Part shown: piece by piece, positions 56,092 through 64,000 of the stretch
How positions within the stretch are numbered: the first letter of the stretch is position 1
Layout: every line of letters begins with the position of its first letter
Program-made: the position numbers and the translations under genes
The notes under the pieces: model-generated
Told to the model about the DNA's origin: nothing
Seen by the model: only the letters and a program-made list of their open reading frames with translations
The model's database searches: none
Assembly: GCF_036127095.1 (NCBI RefSeq)
Contig: NZ_CP108006.1
Span: 5,137,501 to 5,201,500, forward strand
Origin: Streptomyces sp. NBC_00335
GTDB taxonomy: Bacteria > Actinomycetota > Actinomycetes > Streptomycetales > Streptomycetaceae
DNA: 64,000 nt
Reading direction: 5' to 3'

Positions 56092-57354
56092 CTAGGAGCC
56101 GCCGTCCTTGCCGGCACTGGGGATAGCCCCCGTATCGCGCCGCACGAGCCCGCGGACGGGCCGGACGACGATGAGGGCGAGGGCGCAGCCGAGGCTGATC
56201 GCGGCGCCGGCCAGCAGGAGCGGGCGGACGCCGAAGAGGCTGCTCGCCGGGCCCGAGAGGACCTGGCCGAGGGGGATGGCGAGGATCGAACCGCCCACCT
56301 CGTACGCCGTCACGCGGTTGAGCCGGTCCTCGGGGATCTGGGTCTGCACCGTGGTGGACCACTGGACGCCCCAGAACGCCCAGCCCACACCGCTGATCGC
56401 GTAACCGAGCATGAGCAGCGGCAGGGCCGGAACCAGGGCCGCGGCCAGCGGCATCATCGGGAACAGGAACATCGCGAAGCCGCCGCCGAGCAGCGGGCGG
56501 GCCGGGCGGAGCCGGATCGCGACGAGCCCGCCGAGGACGCAGCCGGCCCCGAAGGCGCCCTCCGCGTACCCGAAGGCGGCCTTGCCGTGCTCGGCGATGA
56601 TCGAGGCCGCGCCGAGCGGGGTGAGCGGCCCCCAGACGAAGACCCCGAGCACCCACCAGATCAGGATCACCGTCCACAGCCAGGACCTGGAGCGGAACTC
56701 GTCCCAGCCCTCCCGCAGGTTCGTGAGGGTGGACTGCGAGCGGTCGGGTGCGAAGCGGGGGAGCCGCAGCGCGAGCAGGCAGACCCCGCTGATCGCGAAG
56801 GTGGCGGCGTCGATCACGAAGACCCAGGCCGTCGAGGTGGCGGCGACGAGGACGCCGGCGAGCGCCGGCCCGGCCATCGTGGCCATCCCCTGGCTCACCC
56901 GCAGCACCCCGTTGGCCTGGGTGGGGTCGGTGGAGACCTGGGGGACGAGGCTGGAGGTGCCCGGCTGGAACATCGCGGTCGCGATGCCGCCGAGGACCGA
57001 TCCTCCGATGACGAACCACAGGGTGGGGTGGCCGAGCCAGAGGTACACGGCGAAGGAGCCCTGCGCCACGCACCGGACCGCGTCGGCGCCGATCATCTGC
57101 GGCAGGGGGTGGAAACGGTCCGCGATCACCCCGCCGAACACGATGAAGAGGGCGAAGGACCCCATCCAGGCGCCCAGCGCGTACCCGATGCCGCTCACCC
57201 CGTAGCCGAGGGAGATCATCGCGACGGCCAGGGCGACCGGCATCATCATGTCGCCCAGCATCGACACGATGCGGGCGGTGAAGAACAAGCCGAAGTTCCT
57301 GGTCCACAGGCGGGTTCCGGGCAGGGGTGGGGCGGAGACGGACGAAGTCACCAT
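56092..57354 (-). CDS. MFS transporter, EntS/MFS_3 type
   Basis: A 420-residue protein with 12 membrane helices. MFS loop blocks are seen in VFGGVIADRFHP and in the second half GGLVAIRLRPARP. The sequence pattern (FGLFFTARIVSMLGDMMMPVALAVAMISLG, SLVPQVSTDPTQANGVLRVSQGMATMAGPALAG) fits the MFS_3/enterobactin-exporter-like group, often linked to siderophore or macrolide efflux. ATG 57354 is chosen; TTG 57363 is in frame. It is transcribed before the small membrane-protein gene. Confidence 0.88.
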   Translation of the reverse strand: MVTSSVSAPPLPGTRLWTRNFGLFFTARIVSMLGDMMMPVALAVAMISLGYGVSGIGYALGAWMGSFALFIVFGGVIADRFHPLPQMIGADAVRCVAQGSFAVYLWLGHPTLWFVIGGSVLGGIATAMFQPGTSSLVPQVSTDPTQANGVLRVSQGMATMAGPALAGVLVAATSTAWVFVIDAATFAISGVCLLALRLPRFAPDRSQSTLTNLREGWDEFRSRSWLWTVILIWWVLGVFVWGPLTPLGAASIIAEHGKAAFGYAEGAFGAGCVLGGLVAIRLRPARPLLGGGFAMFLFPMMPLAAALVPALPLLMLGYAISGVGWAFWGVQWSTTVQTQIPEDRLNRVTAYEVGGSILAIPLGQVLSGPASSLFGVRPLLLAGAAISLGCALALIVVRPVRGLVRRDTGAIPSAGKDGGS

Positions 57355-57473
57355 GAGGGCCAATTCACTTGAATTCGGTGGGGGTTGACCGGGTGGAGCT
57401 CGGCGGCCGGCCCTTGAGGATCAAGCGCCGGCCGCGGGCCGGTCAAGCGAATTGAGCCCCGGTGGCGTCTTCG

Positions 57474-58592
57474 TCAGGCGCCGCTTCCCGCCCGCGAGGC
57501 GCGGATCGCGTTCACCAGCCCGGTCACGAGGTTCGCCCGTTCCGCCATGGACCCGATCACGAGGTACTCGTGGTCGGCGTGGGCGCCGCCCCCGACCGCG
57601 CCCAGGCCGTCGAGCGTCGGCACCCCCAGGGCCGCCGTGAAGTTGCCGTCGCTCCCACCGCCGACCGCCGTGCCTTCGAGGCCGGGAAGCAGGTCCAGCG
57701 CCATGGCGAACAGCTCGGTCGACGCCGACTCGGGCATCGGGGGGCGGCCGACCGCACCCTGAACCGTGATCTCCGCCTCTGCGAGATGCGGAGTCAGGGC
57801 TGCGAACGCGGACTCGATCCGGGCCTTCTCGTCGGACGACTCGACCCGGACGTCGACGATCAGGGAAGCCTCTGCCGGAACGACGTTGTCCAGGGTTCCC
57901 GCGGACGCGACGGTCGGAGTGACGGTCGTGCCGACCTCGGGCCGCCCGAGCGCTGCGATGTCCAGCACCTGGTGCGCCGCTTCGATCAGGGCGTTGACTC
58001 CGGCCGCAGGCTCAAGGCCCGCGTGCGATGCCCGGCCCTTGACGGTGACCTGGAACGTTCCGCAGCCCTTCCTGCCGGTCTTCAGCGCGCCGCCGTCCGC
58101 CGCACCCTCGAAGACGAGCACGGCGCCGCAGGCGCGCGCCCGTTCCTCGATGAGAGCACGCGAAGTGCGGGAACCGACCTCTTCGTCGGCGGTCACCAGG
58201 ATCTCGACACCCGATCGGTCATCGAGTGCCGCAAGTCCGTGGACGGCCTGCACCAGACCGCCGAGCATGTCGAAGACCCCCGGACCGGTCGCGTGCCCGC
58301 CCTCCACCTTGAAGGGGCGGCGTTCCAGGGTCCCGAGCGGAAACACCGTGTCGTGGTGTCCGAGAATCAGAACCCTCGGGTCGCCGCCGCCGGACCAGTG
58401 GACGTGGGGCCCGGCATCGCTGTGGACGAGAACGGCCTGCCCGCCGAGCCGACTCTCGATGAGACCGGCGACTACCTTGGCCGATGAGCTCAAGGCTTCG
58501 AGATCACGCGAGGGAGATTCGACCTCGACGAGTGTCCTGAGATCTTCGAGCATCGTCTCGACATTCACGGCCATGGCCTTGCGCATCGTCAT
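57474..58592 (-). CDS. M20 family metallopeptidase (CPG2/ArgE-like)
   Basis: A 372-residue dizinc peptidase. The metal motifs are LGHHDTVFPLG, a bridging Asp in GPGVFDMLGGL, TADEEVGSRTSR (Glu-Glu) and the C-terminal GGGAHADHEYL. The dimerisation domain has KGRASHAGLEPAAGVNALIEAAHQV. It is like glutamate carboxypeptidases and deacetylases of the M20A group. Its ATG overlaps the stop of the upstream ATP-grasp gene, so it belongs to the five-gene cluster. It may remove a protecting group or degrade the product for self-resistance; this is inference. Confidence 0.88.
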   Translation of the reverse strand: MTMRKAMAVNVETMLEDLRTLVEVESPSRDLEALSSSAKVVAGLIESRLGGQAVLVHSDAGPHVHWSGGGDPRVLILGHHDTVFPLGTLERRPFKVEGGHATGPGVFDMLGGLVQAVHGLAALDDRSGVEILVTADEEVGSRTSRALIEERARACGAVLVFEGAADGGALKTGRKGCGTFQVTVKGRASHAGLEPAAGVNALIEAAHQVLDIAALGRPEVGTTVTPTVASAGTLDNVVPAEASLIVDVRVESSDEKARIESAFAALTPHLAEAEITVQGAVGRPPMPESASTELFAMALDLLPGLEGTAVGGGSDGNFTAALGVPTLDGLGAVGGGAHADHEYLVIGSMAERANLVTGLVNAIRASRAGSGA

Positions 58593-60004
58593 ACCGGGAG
58601 GCTACCTGCGATGAGAACGGTGTTCATGGCCGAGCCCTGCAGGGCATTGATGACCTGCCCGCCGCCGGGGCAACTGTGCCGGACGAAGATGTTGGAGATC
58701 TGCCGGCCGAAAAGGAACGGTCCCAGCACGAAGGGCACCGATTCGCTGCGCACCGTGCCTGTTCGATCGTCGTAGAACGCCATGTCCGTCCGGTCGGCCT
58801 GTACGAAGCGCTGGAGGACGTGGCCGCCCTTGGCCACGGCGCGGCGCAGGGCGGTTCGCCAGGTCTCGTCATCCACGGCCCGGCCCAGAACGACCCCGTC
58901 ACCGCCGTGTCCGTTCGCGGGCTTCAGCACCCAGTCCTGCCGGTCGGGGATCACTTGACGAACGGTGTCCTCCTGCTCCGGGGTGACTGCGACGGTCAGC
59001 GGCAGATGCGTGTGAACGAACTGCCGGTCCTCCGGTGCGAGGCGCTCGATGTCCTCCCAGAGCCAGGCGAGTACGGCCTTGTTGCTCAGCAGCCAGCTCG
59101 CCTCCGGGGTATGCATCTGAACGGCTCCGTGCTGGACGGAGTTGATCAGTGCGGTGAAACCCGCCGAGGGCGGCTCGACGGCTGTGATGAACAGCCGCAG
59201 TACGGCATCGAAGCGCGTTTCACCGGAAACCAGCCGGAAGTCGGCATCGTTGCCCAACTCGCGCCACGGGCAGGGAACCGCGACGATGCCGAGACGCCGG
59301 GCACTGTCGACCATCGGCTGGTGACGGCGGATCCGATCGGCCTCGGTGGCCGCGCCGGGGAGAATTCCGTGCGCGTACATCGGAATGGCGAGGTGCACCT
59401 CCCCCGCTCCGTCGAACTGAGCCCGGATCTGCGCGAACCGCGAGTCGACCGCGGACGGTGGAACGGTGAGGCTCAATTCGGGCAGCTCGGCTTCGAGCAC
59501 CGAATGGAAACGGCTGGAGACCAGGTCGGCCTGTGCCGTTCCGCCGACGGCACCATCGATGTTGATCTCTACGAACTTGGGTATGCCCCGTTCCAGCACC
59601 ACATCGGGACGAGTCGCCTCGATGAGGTGGTCGCCGAGCGGCTCGTCCTTCCGAAGGAGTGGCATCTGCTCGGCCGGAACGCCGAGCAGGTCCAGCAGCT
59701 CTCCGGCCGTACCGGCCCGTCGCCGGCAAGCCTCCAGGACCAGCACGGCGAGGCGGTCGCTGAGCTCTCCGAGTTCCTGGTGGAATGCCGCGCTGAACAC
59801 CATGGGCCGCAGCGGCCACCACGGCCCGGCGGCTCCCGCAACGCCGTCGAAGACATGGCCATAGCGCTGCTGTGCTGCGCCATGAGCGCGGTCCTGCCAC
59901 GATGCAGGAAGCCGAGGCCACAGGTCGGCGCCGAGATGGGGCGAACTCTTGAGCTCCACGGGTCTGTTGATCTCCTCGTCGTTGTCAGCGTGGCCGATGG
60001 CCAC
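58589..60004 (-). CDS. ATP-grasp ligase, circularly permuted/glutathionylspermidine-synthase-like
   Basis: A 471-residue protein from GTG 60004, which has GGAG nine bases upstream. An ATP-grasp core lies in the second half: DRQDWVLKPANGHGGDGVVLGRAVDDETW with the ATP-binding Lys. A metal-ligand-like FVEINIDGAVGG appears earlier, suggesting permuted order. Conserved His and Arg blocks (IRRHQPMVDSARR, LQRFVQADRTDMAFYDD) follow. It probably forms an amide bond between a carboxylate and an amine. It is translationally coupled to the M20 gene downstream, and 67 bases follow the MFS stop. Confidence 0.8.
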   Translation of the reverse strand: MAIGHADNDEEINRPVELKSSPHLGADLWPRLPASWQDRAHGAAQQRYGHVFDGVAGAAGPWWPLRPMVFSAAFHQELGELSDRLAVLVLEACRRRAGTAGELLDLLGVPAEQMPLLRKDEPLGDHLIEATRPDVVLERGIPKFVEINIDGAVGGTAQADLVSSRFHSVLEAELPELSLTVPPSAVDSRFAQIRAQFDGAGEVHLAIPMYAHGILPGAATEADRIRRHQPMVDSARRLGIVAVPCPWRELGNDADFRLVSGETRFDAVLRLFITAVEPPSAGFTALINSVQHGAVQMHTPEASWLLSNKAVLAWLWEDIERLAPEDRQFVHTHLPLTVAVTPEQEDTVRQVIPDRQDWVLKPANGHGGDGVVLGRAVDDETWRTALRRAVAKGGHVLQRFVQADRTDMAFYDDRTGTVRSESVPFVLGPFLFGRQISNIFVRHSCPGGGQVINALQGSAMNTVLIAGSLPV

Positions 60005-60071
60005 GGCACGTGCTCCGGCCGGTTCTGTCGGCCGGCATTCGTGTATCCAGGGGTTTCCACACCTGCCGATG

Positions 60072-61304
60072 TCAGGAACTCGTGGCCATCGCGGGCAGGT
60101 CACGCATGGTGCGCAGCGGCGATGCGAGGACCCACAGAGTGGACAGGGCCATTCCTGCCACGGCTACGGCCACTGCCAACCGCACGCCGCCCCATTCGCC
60201 AAGGGCGCCGCCGATGAGCCCGCCGAGCGGGAGGACGCCCCAGATCAGGAAGCGAACGGTGGCGTTCATCCTGGACAGCATCTCCGGGGGGCAGATCCTC
60301 TGGCGGAAGCTGACCTGCGCCACGTTGTAGATGACCAGCCCGAAATTCACGATGAACCACGAAACGCCGAACAGCACGGTTCCCCAGCCACCTGATCCGA
60401 GCGGAAGCAAGAAGCCGAAGGGCATGCAGGCGGCGAGGGACAGCCAGATCACCCGGGCGGGCCCGGCCCAGTCGGATATCTTGCGGGCGGATATCGCACC
60501 GACGAATCCGCCGATCCCGCCGGAGGCCATCAGAGCACCGGCCGCCCAATCCGGCTGGTTCATGGCATCGACGAGCAACACCACCAGCAGCGGCGAAGCA
60601 ACTGCGTAGAAGAAGTTGAACGTTGCTGAAGTGCCGGTGAGCGCCCGCATGAGCGGGTCGCCGAGCACATAGCGCAGACCGGCCTTGATCTCGGGAATCA
60701 TGGGCTTGCGGGCGCGTGCTGCCGGTGGCGGGGATTCTTCCCGGATGCGGTTCAGGCTGGCGGCAGACACGAGGTAGCACAAGGCCTGTACCCCCACCGC
60801 GTTCGCCGAGGACATCAGGCCGGTCAGGCCGCCTCCGGCCGCGGGGCCGGCTACCTGGGCCACCGTGCGACTGCTCTCCAGACGTGCGTTGCCCTCCGTC
60901 AGATGGGCCGGGCCCACCAGCGGTACCAGGTAGGACTGGTAGGCGACGTCGAAGAAGACCGTGGCGCAACCGCCGAGCAGGCCGATGACCAGCAACTGGC
61001 TCAAGGTCAGGCAGTCCAGCCACCATGCCAAGGGGACGCTGAGCAGCAACAGCGCCCGGACGACGTCCGAGAGGACCATGACCGTGCGAGGCGGCATCCG
61101 GTCGACCAGGACACCGGCCGGCAGCCCGATGACCAGGAAGGCGACGGACTGTACGGCGTACAGCAGGCCCATCTCGAACGGCGTCGCGGCCAGCGCGGTC
61201 ATCGCGACCAACGGCATGGCCACCCGGTTGACATGCGTACCGAACTGGCTCGCGGTCTGCCCGACCCACAGGCAGCGGAAGCCCTGGTGCCGCAGCAGGC
61301 TCAT
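60072..61304 (-). CDS. MFS exporter of the cluster
   Basis: A 410-residue protein with 12 membrane helices. The first half has FRCLWVGQTASQFGTHVNRVAMPLVAMTAL and the loop GLPAGVLVDRMPPRTVMVLSD; the second half has GGFVGAISARKISDWAGPARV. This is the MFS_3-type efflux pattern. Its ATG overlaps the stop of the upstream ATP-grasp gene (61301-61304), fixing it in the operon. Export of the cluster product is the natural inference. Confidence 0.88.
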   Translation of the reverse strand: MSLLRHQGFRCLWVGQTASQFGTHVNRVAMPLVAMTALAATPFEMGLLYAVQSVAFLVIGLPAGVLVDRMPPRTVMVLSDVVRALLLLSVPLAWWLDCLTLSQLLVIGLLGGCATVFFDVAYQSYLVPLVGPAHLTEGNARLESSRTVAQVAGPAAGGGLTGLMSSANAVGVQALCYLVSAASLNRIREESPPPAARARKPMIPEIKAGLRYVLGDPLMRALTGTSATFNFFYAVASPLLVVLLVDAMNQPDWAAGALMASGGIGGFVGAISARKISDWAGPARVIWLSLAACMPFGFLLPLGSGGWGTVLFGVSWFIVNFGLVIYNVAQVSFRQRICPPEMLSRMNATVRFLIWGVLPLGGLIGGALGEWGGVRLAVAVAVAGMALSTLWVLASPLRTMRDLPAMATSS

Positions 61305-62554
61305 ACGATCGCCGCGTACAGGTCGTTCTTCTCCAGGTCCCGGATCCGCTGGTAGTCGTCGTGAACCTGGCCGGCATCAGGGTGGGCCAGGTAGACCGAC
61401 CCGAAGGAGCTGACCAAGTCACGCGTCTTGCGGACGGGCCCGACCGCACCCTTGAGGCGCATGGAGTGGAAGGACGGAAGTTCCCGGACCTCGCGGAGGT
61501 CCAGGTCGGCCTTCAGCACACCATCGCGCGGGCAGTGCAGCGCCACCTGTGCCAGCGTCGCCCGGTGGGGGAGGGGCTGCTCGGTGGCGGCCAGGAAGTG
61601 GTCGGGGGCGGTGTACGCGGCCGCTGTCATCAGCGCAAGGTTCGAGCCGTAGACCGGGAGGGTGATGCCCGGGGCGATGCCGCCGTGCAGCCGAGCGCCG
61701 AGTTCGATGAGCACGGGGCCGGACTCGGTGAGCATCACCTCGGTGTGGGTGGGGCCCCAGCTGATGCCGAAGGCGTCCAGCACCGTGGTCACGTAGTCGG
61801 TGAGTACCGGCCACACCGGACTGTCAGGCGCGATGAGAGCGCTCAGATCGTAGATCCGGGAGCCGTCGACCACGCTCTTGTCGGCCCGCCACACCTCGAT
61901 GACGCGATGGTGACCGCTCACGGAGACCACGTCCACCATGTACTCCTCGCCCACTAGCATCTCCTGGGCAAGGAAGGCCTCGTTGGAGTTGCCCCACATG
62001 TCGGTGGTGCCGAGCCTGCGGGCGAAGTAGGCATCGCTCTCGGCAGCCGAGTGCACCAACTCGACACCGTTCGTCGCCGCGCTCTGCAGCGGCTTCAGCA
62101 CGATCGGGTAGCCCTCGCCCGCGGCAGCGAAGACGCGTGCCTCCGCGGCCGTGGTGACCTGCGCCGAGCGAGCGTGCCGGATTCCGGCGTTGCGCACCAC
62201 TTCGACCATCGCTGCCTTCTCGCGCTTGGCCGCAGTCAGCTCGATGCCATTTCCCGTAGGTACACCAAGGAGGTGGGCCAGGTGGTCGGCCACGTAGACG
62301 CCGCTTTCCAGGCCGGACACCACGTGTGCGACGTGGTAGGAATCGAGGCGGGCCGTCACGCCTTCGTAGTCACCGTGGAAGTCGATGACTTCGATCACCC
62401 CTGCCGCCCGTTCGGGGTGCGCCCACGGGGCATATTCCTCAACGCGGTTGCGCACATGCACCGTCGGGAGGCCGTAGGCGTGGAATGCTGCGGGCAACAA
62501 CGCTCCGCTGCTGTAGGCATCGACAATCACACAGACGGTTTCTTTGTTCTTCAT
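61301..62554 (-). CDS. ATP-grasp amino-acid ligase-like enzyme
   Basis: A 417-residue protein with a full ATP-grasp fold of the L-amino-acid ligase/PurK-like group. The N-terminal part is VCVIVDAYSSGALLPAAFHAYG. The ATP lysine region is YPIVLKPLQSAATNGV; the hinge is FLAQEMLVGEEYMVDVVS; the metal site is GPVLIELGARLHGG. It should activate a carboxylate as acyl-phosphate and join it to an amine. ATG 62554 has AGGA upstream. It lies 77 bases after the aminotransferase-like gene and overlaps the exporter start. Confidence 0.88.
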   Translation of the reverse strand: MKNKETVCVIVDAYSSGALLPAAFHAYGLPTVHVRNRVEEYAPWAHPERAAGVIEVIDFHGDYEGVTARLDSYHVAHVVSGLESGVYVADHLAHLLGVPTGNGIELTAAKREKAAMVEVVRNAGIRHARSAQVTTAAEARVFAAAGEGYPIVLKPLQSAATNGVELVHSAAESDAYFARRLGTTDMWGNSNEAFLAQEMLVGEEYMVDVVSVSGHHRVIEVWRADKSVVDGSRIYDLSALIAPDSPVWPVLTDYVTTVLDAFGISWGPTHTEVMLTESGPVLIELGARLHGGIAPGITLPVYGSNLALMTAAAYTAPDHFLAATEQPLPHRATLAQVALHCPRDGVLKADLDLREVRELPSFHSMRLKGAVGPVRKTRDLVSSFGSVYLAHPDAGQVHDDYQRIRDLEKNDLYAAIV

Positions 62555-62631
62555 GGGCTTCCTCCCGAGGTGGTGTGCGCCCGCCGGCCGGGCGGACATC
62601 GAGGCCGTACGAAACCGGCCCGCGACGCGTT

Positions 62632-63978
62632 CTAGGCGAGTCGCGGACTGACGGCCGAGACGGCCTGCATGGCGCTCTCCAGGGCAGTCAGGAAGGACTC
62701 GTCGGTCTCTGTTGTCTGCGGCAGCGACAGGGTGACGAAGCCGCTCTTGCCGATGTAGATGCCGCGTTCCAGCAACTCGTGGAACAGGAGCTCCACCGGC
62801 CGCCGGTCCGTGCCGGCCAGGTCCGAGGCGCGGTCGACGGACACGTCGGTGGGGTGGATCCCCATGAGGGACCCCCAGCCGGTGGCCTGGAATCCGTGGC
62901 ACCGCAGCAGGGTGTCGGCACGCTTCCGCAGCTCTTCGCCACGCTCGAACAGCCCGTCGAGGGCCGCCCGCGTCAGTACGGTGCCCAGCATGGCCGAACT
63001 GGCCGCCATGGAGAACCGGTTGTTGTTGAAGGTGCCCGAGTGGTCGTAGGACCGCTCCCCGCCCCGCGCGATCTGAAGCATCAGCTTCTCCGCACCACCG
63101 ACCACGCCGAATCCGAACCCGCCGCCGATGTACTTGCCCAGAGTCGTCAGGTCGGGGCGGACACCGAGCAGCGACTGGGCCCCGCCGTACGACATGCGGG
63201 AGGTCTGAACCTCGTCGAAGACGAGCACGGACCCGTTCTCGTCACAGAGCGCCCTGAGCCCCTTCAGGAAATCCGGAGCTGCCTGGATGCGCCCCCCGGA
63301 ACCCAGCATCGGCTCCACCAGCACGCACCCGATCTGCTCGGGCCACTGACGGAATGCCTCGCGCACGGACTCGAGGTCGTTGTAGTCGCAGATGACGGAG
63401 TCGAAGGGAACGTTCAGGGACGGGCGCCCACGGCTGAAGCTGAGGAAGCCACCGTGGTATCCGCCGTCGAACACCAGGAGCTTGTTCCGCCCGGTCGACT
63501 TCAGGGCGAGTGAGATCGCCGCCAGATTGGCCTCGGTGCCCGAGCTGGTGAACCGGACGAGGTCCATCGATTCGAAGCGCTCGCACAGGAGCCGCGCGAC
63601 TTCGGCCTCTTCCGCTGCGACCGCCCCGAACGACCAGCCGTTCTCCAGGACCGATGCGACAGCTTCTCGTACCGCTTCGGGATTGTGCCCTGCGAGGCCG
63701 ACGCTGTAATCGCCCAGGTAGTCGAGGTACACCTGGCCGTCGATATCCGTGAGATGACAGCCGGCCGCGGAGGCGACGGTGAAAGGGAAAGGATCGAAGT
63801 CCAACACGGACCGCGTTGTGCCCGAAGGGAGGAACATTCTGGCGTGTGCATGCTGCTTCTCGCTGAGCGGACGCTTCACGGCGTACCGCTGGTAGGAGCT
63901 TTCCAGCGCATTATTGATCATGGCACTCTTCATCATCGTCTCGGGTCCACGAGAACCCGACAAGCCTGTTTTTGACAT
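62632..63978 (-). CDS. GSAM-like class III PLP enzyme (aminotransferase or aminomutase)
   Basis: A 448-residue PLP enzyme similar to glutamate-1-semialdehyde 2,1-aminomutase. The PLP lysine is Lys282 in TLGKYIGGGFGFG; cofactor blocks are FTSSGTEANLAAISLA and VLVFDEVQTSR, and FDGGYHGGFLSF is present. The heme-pathway hemL normally sits with other heme genes, which are absent here, so a role in making an unusual amino acid is likely. The start is unsure: ATG 63978 is at the edge of the visible region; ATG 63936 and 63921 are in frame. It is the first gene seen of the cluster, and 63979-64000 holds nothing recognisable. Confidence 0.88.
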   Translation of the reverse strand: MSKTGLSGSRGPETMMKSAMINNALESSYQRYAVKRPLSEKQHAHARMFLPSGTTRSVLDFDPFPFTVASAAGCHLTDIDGQVYLDYLGDYSVGLAGHNPEAVREAVASVLENGWSFGAVAAEEAEVARLLCERFESMDLVRFTSSGTEANLAAISLALKSTGRNKLLVFDGGYHGGFLSFSRGRPSLNVPFDSVICDYNDLESVREAFRQWPEQIGCVLVEPMLGSGGRIQAAPDFLKGLRALCDENGSVLVFDEVQTSRMSYGGAQSLLGVRPDLTTLGKYIGGGFGFGVVGGAEKLMLQIARGGERSYDHSGTFNNNRFSMAASSAMLGTVLTRAALDGLFERGEELRKRADTLLRCHGFQATGWGSLMGIHPTDVSVDRASDLAGTDRRPVELLFHELLERGIYIGKSGFVTLSLPQTTETDESFLTALESAMQAVSAVSPRLA

Positions 63979-64000
63979 GTGAATTGCGGTAGACGCGCTA

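Follow-up and report, generated by a model that had tools for sequence, protein, structure and literature searches.

What does a compact run of co-directional genes at one edge of a Streptomyces genome segment encode, and is it a biosynthetic unit or a chance neighbourhood? The segment is a stretch of 64,000 nucleotides (the window) from Streptomyces sp. NBC_00335, corresponding to positions 5137501-5201500 of an 8,706,292-base contig in a genome of 9.0 Mb. Five of the genes, designated D-H, lie inside the window at its edge, and three further co-directional genes (A, B and C), read from the same contig, follow past the right edge, giving a run of eight on the minus strand from window position 57474 to about 67308 (Table 1). 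Together, these genes probably direct the synthesis of a small peptide-like natural product from an unusual amino acid, independently of nonribosomal peptide synthetases (NRPS); this degree of confidence applies to the general reading and not to the order of reactions proposed below. An initial annotation of the window had suggested a ligase-built compound with a beta- or diamino-type acid, which remains the best reading, with a product class that we infer.

Gene layout across the window edge

Since all five window genes, placed as initially annotated, lie on the minus strand, transcription proceeds from right to left and the operon begins outside the window, the genes being transcribed in the order A, B, C, D, E, F, G, H. 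A continuation past the right edge had been considered possible, and the next stretch adds C, B and A. The five-gene cluster originally described is thus real but incomplete: the set comprises eight genes, and two oxygenases and an opine-type dehydrogenase fall outside the window, which contains only the stop codon of C (63998..64000). Each of the reading frames D-H has an ATG or GTG start and no internal stops. Three genes had been described as coupled by overlapping start and stop codons; the ATGA overlaps are genuine, but they are better read as two coupled pairs, because just two junctions, E/F at 61301-61304 and G/H at 58589-58592, are such 4-base overlaps. The gaps measure 77 bases between D and E and, if G starts at the GTG at 60004, 67 bases between F and G; the starts of B and G were taken from database versions of these proteins (P0149 and P0001, respectively). 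Strand and spacing suggest that A-H constitute a single operon. An upstream open reading frame (L002:11670-12587) had no Pfam match and was left out of the gene count.

Table 1. Positions of genes A-H and of the related Pantoea plasmid cluster (aa, amino acids; PLP, pyridoxal phosphate; MFS, major facilitator superfamily; GSH, glutathione)
Feature	Description	Size	Position	Strand	Remark
A	TauD-type oxygenase	321 aa	extended 66343-67308 (L002:10344-11309)	minus	
B	Clavaminate-synthase-like Fe(II)/2-oxoglutarate oxygenase	306 aa	extended 65224-66144 (L002:9225-10145)	minus	
C	Octopine/nopaline (opine) dehydrogenase family	402 aa	extended 63998-65206 (L002:7999-9207)	minus	
D	Class III PLP enzyme, beta-phenylalanine aminotransferase / beta-transaminase type	448 aa	62632-63978	minus	Start codon uncertain
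E	ATP-grasp L-amino-acid ligase, PRK07206/DdaF branch	417 aa	61301-62554	minus	
F	MFS transporter, probable exporter	410 aa	60072-61304	minus	TIGR00900-like, under cut-off
G	Circularly permuted ATP-grasp ligase, YgiC/YjfC/glutathionylspermidine-synthetase/eukaryotic GSH-synthetase fold	471 aa	58589-60004	minus	
H	M20 metallohydrolase nearest carboxypeptidase G2 / glutamate carboxypeptidase	372 aa	57474-58592	minus	
Pantoea cluster	B-C-type plasmid cluster	eight genes, 7,778 bases	L027:14058-21835		49.1% GC

Recurrence of the gene set and its island character

A scan of one genome per species, in which C was aligned as the query, yielded six loci (L019-L024). B is present in five of the six, A, D and H in four, F and G in two and E in one, and the core A, B, C, D and H recurs in four (L019-L022). 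The locus of S. samsunensis (L020) carries all eight genes, E being inverted and some 4 kb distant, and that of S. violaceusniger (L022) carries seven, E not being found within the flank covered. In S. pathocidini (L019) and Pseudonocardia sp. ICBG1293 (L021), the core is accompanied by another L-amino-acid ligase with an LAL_C2 domain (52% identity between the two) and a FemAB-like transferase (38% identity); the H gene of Pseudonocardia lies about 5 kb before B. B, C and D stand side by side in L020-L022. The amide-forming sets therefore consist of E, F and G (host and S. samsunensis), F and G (S. violaceusniger), or the other ligase and the FemAB-like transferase. Co-occurrence of the five window genes elsewhere, on which the initial annotation had made its cluster depend, is found: D-H are all present in S. 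samsunensis, while S. violaceusniger has D, F, G and H, and only D and H occur in S. pathocidini and Pseudonocardia. Of the two remaining loci, one, from a Hyphomicrobiales metagenome-assembled genome (L023), has B and C, and their partners there are a TauD protein, a DapD homologue, an AMP-binding enzyme and a carbamoyltransferase; A has a 26% match in this locus. The other, a Nocardia locus (L024), has C only (36%).

Two further genes adjoin the core in the S. samsunensis and Pseudonocardia loci (L020:4952-6793 and L021:5162-6742). One encodes an AbgT-family transporter (PF03806 at 456 bits in L021, alike by eye in L020), and the other an XRE-type regulator with 66% identity between the two loci, which suggests common transport and control in this pair.

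C is rare, being detected in two of 392 sampled genomes of the genus, host included (E 1e-20), and in the host alone among 394 sampled genomes of the class (E 1e-15). G is commoner, occurring in 14 of the 392 genus genomes, again with the host (E 1e-30). Among 14 short G loci outside the host, ten have an F-like MFS match and none matches any of the other six proteins; because such loci carry at most an F-like partner, G alone is no marker of the cluster.

B and C, on the other hand, travel together. In the protein tables, 18 of the 24 distinct longest-contig sizes (8 kb or more) of B matches equal sizes found for C matches, and the host contig, on which both genes were read directly, is a 19th case. 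Besides the host contig, five B and 13 C sizes have no partner; matching is by the longest contig of each protein cluster, and a non-match does not mean absence. The table for C covers the 7,997 best candidates scored, and the searches with C and G scored just those candidates sharing most words. A contig size of 46,581 bases recurs for P0111, P0122, P0153, P0167 and P0004 (two C, two B and one G-like protein), perhaps reflecting two related clusters on one contig.

The composition and flanks of the locus are those of an island. In agreement with the initial annotation, which had noted a GC content under that of the surroundings, the eight-gene stretch has 66.2% GC, compared with 72.0% in window 1-57000 on one side and, on the other, 74.1% over 7.5 kb followed by 72.1% over the next 20 kb. 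The RpiR-type regulator beside the cluster is closely matched in 11 same-genus relatives; flanks were compared in four of these 11 (L063-L066), and in all four the A-H proteins had no match at E 1e-10. Two of the four present an empty site. In L066, 186 bases lie between the two genes that flank the cluster (the regulator and a small conserved gene), and the cystathionine beta-synthase (CBS) gene follows; in L063, which has the most similar flanks (CBS 98.5% and RpiR 93% identical), the spacing is 379 bases. In L064 and L065, both flank ends are kept with about 6-7 kb of other DNA in between. No tRNA was found in L002 as an insertion mark, and the flanking repeats comprise four direct-repeat families, short and imperfect, none with copies at both island ends. 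The eight-gene operon was probably acquired, and it is more than a chance neighbourhood, because the set recurs elsewhere, including in a second genus, and the flanks adjoin without it in two of four relatives.

A neighbouring MFS gene (window 56092-57363) varies near the same spot. Between the flank ends of L063 (L063:18428-18680), only two fragments matching this gene are retained, and its best match in 20 relatives is about 50% or less.

Enzymes encoded by the cluster

Gene D, initially labelled a GSAM-like (glutamate-1-semialdehyde aminomutase-like) PLP enzyme, proved to be beta-transaminase-like instead. Among the best 60 of 177 matches to solved proteins, the nearest were the beta-phenylalanine aminotransferase 4ao9 (344 bits) and the beta-transaminases 6iz9 and 2yku (327 bits), versus 237 bits for the best GSAM structure. 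D also matches the aminotransferase parts of mycosubtilin synthase (115 bits) and PigE (116 bits), far below the beta-transaminases. The PLP lysine in a GKYIGGG stretch is kept (K282, conserved in all four aligned cluster members), as is the first Arg (TTRSVL), that of the TRSVL-type motif. The second Arg motif, PRG in 4ao9 and 2yku, is replaced by KSG or RSG in all four members, and the two Arg positions, which we take to be substrate-binding in beta-transaminases, are therefore not both kept. Because the nearest structures fit while the second motif differs, D appears from its sequence to lie near, but not squarely within, the beta-transaminases. A role of D as HemL, in porphyrin synthesis, was ruled out by score rather than by a tree, by its nearest relatives and by a separate true hemL in the host genome (C1:3605012, 588 bits): D reaches 262 bits against the hemL model TIGR00713, whose cut-off is 527.3, and thus does not group with true hemL; the initial annotation had named such a grouping as fatal to its cluster.

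The metal-site residues of A (H109, E111 and H305) are kept in all four aligned proteins, and those of B (H152, D154 and H295, numbered on a 332-aa reading) in all seven. The best solved matches of A are the plant TauD-like protein 1y0z and 9yut, and the sole solved match of B at E 0.001, a weak one, is an L-lysine 3-hydroxylase. B scores 28.6 bits against the clavaminate synthase equivalog NF043003 (cut-off 450), so that "clavaminate-synthase-like" is meant in a broad sense. Two specialised roles for these oxygenases were considered and dropped. ScoE-type isonitrile formation was set aside because A and B list no ScoE match and the TauD protein of the Hyphomicrobiales locus is nearer to taurine dioxygenase (211 bits, cut-off 313) than to ScoE (66 bits, cut-off 400), both scores being sub-threshold. 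As for fumarate epoxidation as in the E-64 pathway, the word TauD is absent from the text of PMC12568646, so Cp1A was not linked to A.

C carries an Octopine_DH domain and shares a predicted fold with the opine dehydrogenase family over its whole length, placing it in that family. Opine-type dehydrogenases fill the first 12 rows of the structural comparison, and the ketopantoate-reductase fold comes next. However, identity to the opine dehydrogenases with which it shares domain and fold (1bg6 and the octopine, staphylopine and pseudopaline enzymes) is just 11-16%, and C differs from them in having an Fe/2-oxoglutarate oxygenase as its partner. By alignment, all seven C proteins compared share invariant His and Asp residues.

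The two ligases are unlike each other, as initially proposed. E exceeds the cut-off of the L-amino-acid ligase model PRK07206 (328 versus 302 bits) and matches PDB 30vh, "L-amino acid ligase" (210 bits), while it falls far under that of the dapdiamide A synthase DdaF equivalog (192 versus 840 bits) and matches BacD weakly (27 bits); its partner in S. samsunensis is 70% identical. For G, the predicted fold is that of the circularly permuted ATP-grasp family, of the glutathionylspermidine-synthetase type. Its Pfam scores for GSP_synth and CP_ATPgrasp_2 are 20.5 and 24.3 bits (20.9 and 24.6 for a shorter reading), under the gathering thresholds of 29.3 and 32, although the protein table still gives PF14403 for P0001.

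The exporter and the M20 peptidase of the initial annotation were likewise recovered. F matches PF07690/PF05977, reaches 211 bits against TIGR00900 (cut-off 320) and has partners of 67.6% identity in S. samsunensis and 68.0% in S. violaceusniger. H matches PF01546 and PF07687, with 246 bits for PRK06133 (cut-off 349), carboxypeptidase G2 (1cg2) as its best solved relative and 66-76% identical partners in four of the six loci. The absence of visible NRPS, polyketide synthase (PKS) or ribosomally synthesised and post-translationally modified peptide (RiPP) genes also holds: no Pfam or NCBIfam row for phosphonate, NRPS, PKS or RiPP functions is among the matches listed for the eight proteins (for NCBIfam, the best 25 of 68 for D and the best 25 of 37 for H). 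No RiPP precursor peptide turned up in the family matches of A-H, and no search aimed at short precursors was made.

Proposed pathway, rival readings and known systems

The unusual amino acid that A-D would build is probably of the beta-amino or opine type. In the pathway proposed here, D would make or use a beta-amino acid, and C would reductively couple a 2-oxo acid with an amine; the resulting opine-type core, a secondary amine, would be oxidised by B and then by A. E and G would each add one amide bond, a task that may fall to the other L-amino-acid ligase and the FemAB-like transferase in S. pathocidini and Pseudonocardia. The product would be exported by F, and H would cleave an amide bond, a step that would serve either maturation of the compound or self-protection. 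Constancy of the core A, B, C, D and H, combined with variation of the amide-forming parts, suggests that the building block is always the same and that two amide bonds are formed. Each of these reactions is one that we infer, drawing on observed gene content, recurrence and conserved metal- and PLP-site residues of A, B and D, and on the predicted folds of C and G; the order D, C, B, A, followed by E and G, is tentative.

An opine-type core is the preferred chemistry for C, but one rival appears about as likely and is equally tentative: that C does not form opines and is instead a beta-hydroxy/keto or ketopantoate-reductase-like oxidoreductase in a pathway giving a 2,3-diamino acid, which E and G would ligate. 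B would then hydroxylate an amino acid at C3, C would oxidise the alcohol and D would transaminate the ketone, a sequence that would explain why B, C and D are adjacent in L020-L022. This route is also consistent with the beta-transaminase type of D, with the position of the ketopantoate-reductase fold as the next structural neighbour in the predicted model of C, and with the nearest relatives of B, which are amino-acid beta-hydroxylases and clavaminate synthase, all weakly matched.

Relatives of the B-C pair extend to plasmids. C-like genes were found on three plasmid records, two from Pantoea agglomerans and one from Klebsiella pneumoniae (L027, L028 and L029). As in the host cluster, B (48 and 42% identity) and C (38 and 36%) are adjacent and ATP-grasp and MFS genes are present, whereas a PhyH oxygenase, a DapD-like acyltransferase, a short-chain dehydrogenase/reductase (SDR) and a LysE transporter take the place of A, D, G and H, and the ATP-grasp protein shares only some 22-25% identity with E, along part of E's length. 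On all three plasmids, B and C are followed by the PhyH oxygenase, DapD-like acyltransferase, SDR, ATP-grasp, MFS and LysE genes, the last three standing in another order in Klebsiella than in Pantoea. The Klebsiella cluster, of eight genes (L029:1541-9442), lies on plasmid pFF979_2 from a bat, which is typed as conjugative, IncFIB/IncFII. A P. agglomerans TH81 plasmid (L067:7001-10278) carries part of the Pantoea cluster at 87% identity, including the DapD-like and ATP-grasp genes; C has no match in this record, the DNA match starting after it, and the record contains a second matching place.

This recurrence of B and C on enterobacterial plasmids points to a useful activity moving between phyla. 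With preference for opine chemistry in C, a speculative proposal, to be judged as a whole, would be that the B-C pair is a portable module supplying a warhead class, an opine-derived amino acid that is reactive or mimics a target, that it has spread among Actinobacteria, a Hyphomicrobiales bacterium and enterobacterial plasmids, and that, with differing ligases, it underlies a family of small peptide antibiotics possibly missed by standard cluster finders. To our knowledge, opine chemistry has not been linked to such a warhead class.

A more specific identification, of the Pantoea plasmid cluster as the antibiotic cluster PNP-3 and of the Streptomyces cluster as its actinobacterial relative, seems doubtful. 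According to PMC11350110, PNP-3 has eight genes, 8,487 bases and 49.06% GC and was Pantoea-only in the authors' BLAST survey; the Pantoea cluster comes near it in gene number and GC (eight genes, 49.1%), a likeness of size and GC only. Against this, PMC7744662 gives PNP-3 four predicted biosynthetic genes, compared with about six enzyme genes and two transporters in the Pantoea cluster, and reports that in strain 3581 it sits inside a stretch classified by antiSMASH as phosphonate/NRPS.

The eight genes might also form a catabolic or scavenging operon, with an imported peptide or a derivative of an amino acid broken down by the oxygenases, the transaminase and the M20 hydrolase. The kinship of H to carboxypeptidase G2, the often catabolic role of TauD-type oxygenases and the AbgT-family transporter beside the Pseudonocardia cluster and, by eye, the S. 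samsunensis cluster fit such a role. Nevertheless, two amide ligases would use ATP for bond making, the distribution is sporadic and island-like, and the ligase sets vary while the core is constant, all of which make degradation improbable. Least probable is an opine-type metallophore made without nicotianamine synthase and exported by F: staphylopine, pseudopaline and yersinopine are metallophores, their dehydrogenases are among the nearest folds of the modelled C, and staphylopine is exported by an MFS protein, but by eye the island and its immediate flanks contain no solute-binding, ABC uptake, metal-receptor or nicotianamine synthase gene (no dedicated search was made for these or for metal-responsive promoter boxes).

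Ligase-built peptides are already known in kind, and the host cluster is a variation on them. Like it, the dapdiamide-type ATP-grasp dipeptide clusters (DdaF) and, more distantly, bacilysin (BacD) achieve ligation without an NRPS, and dapdiamide-type clusters include an Fe/2-oxoglutarate oxygenase and an MFS exporter, as here. We know of no opine-type dehydrogenase, beta-transaminase or second YgiC-fold ligase in dapdiamide or bacilysin clusters, nor of any system in which an opine-type dehydrogenase is joined by a clavaminate-synthase-like oxygenase and a beta-transaminase, and a search of the open literature by these gene names found no description of this gene set among the titles and abstract openings listed. 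Small ligase-made peptides that involve no NRPS, PKS or ribosomal precursor easily escape notice, and several known ones are antimetabolite antibiotics. With a conserved enzyme core and differing ligase sets, the building block and its attachments can be distinguished by comparison; if the opine-type reading is true, opine chemistry joins the bacterial routes to peptide antibiotics.

A further parallel is the E-64 pathway of Aspergillus (cp1/cp2), whose first amide bond is made by a ligase of G's fold, Cp1B, according to PMC12568646. As described there, this pathway is fungal and cyanobacterial, its second ligase is of the ANL type and its cluster has no dehydrogenase or transaminase, unlike the host cluster. 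G-like ligases also occur, by eye, in quite different bacterial clusters, one with SbnA/SbnB-like genes of the diaminopropionate type, PIG-L and another ATP-grasp gene (L033:4362-15988), and one with homoaconitase-like and FemAB-like genes (L034:2863-10735).

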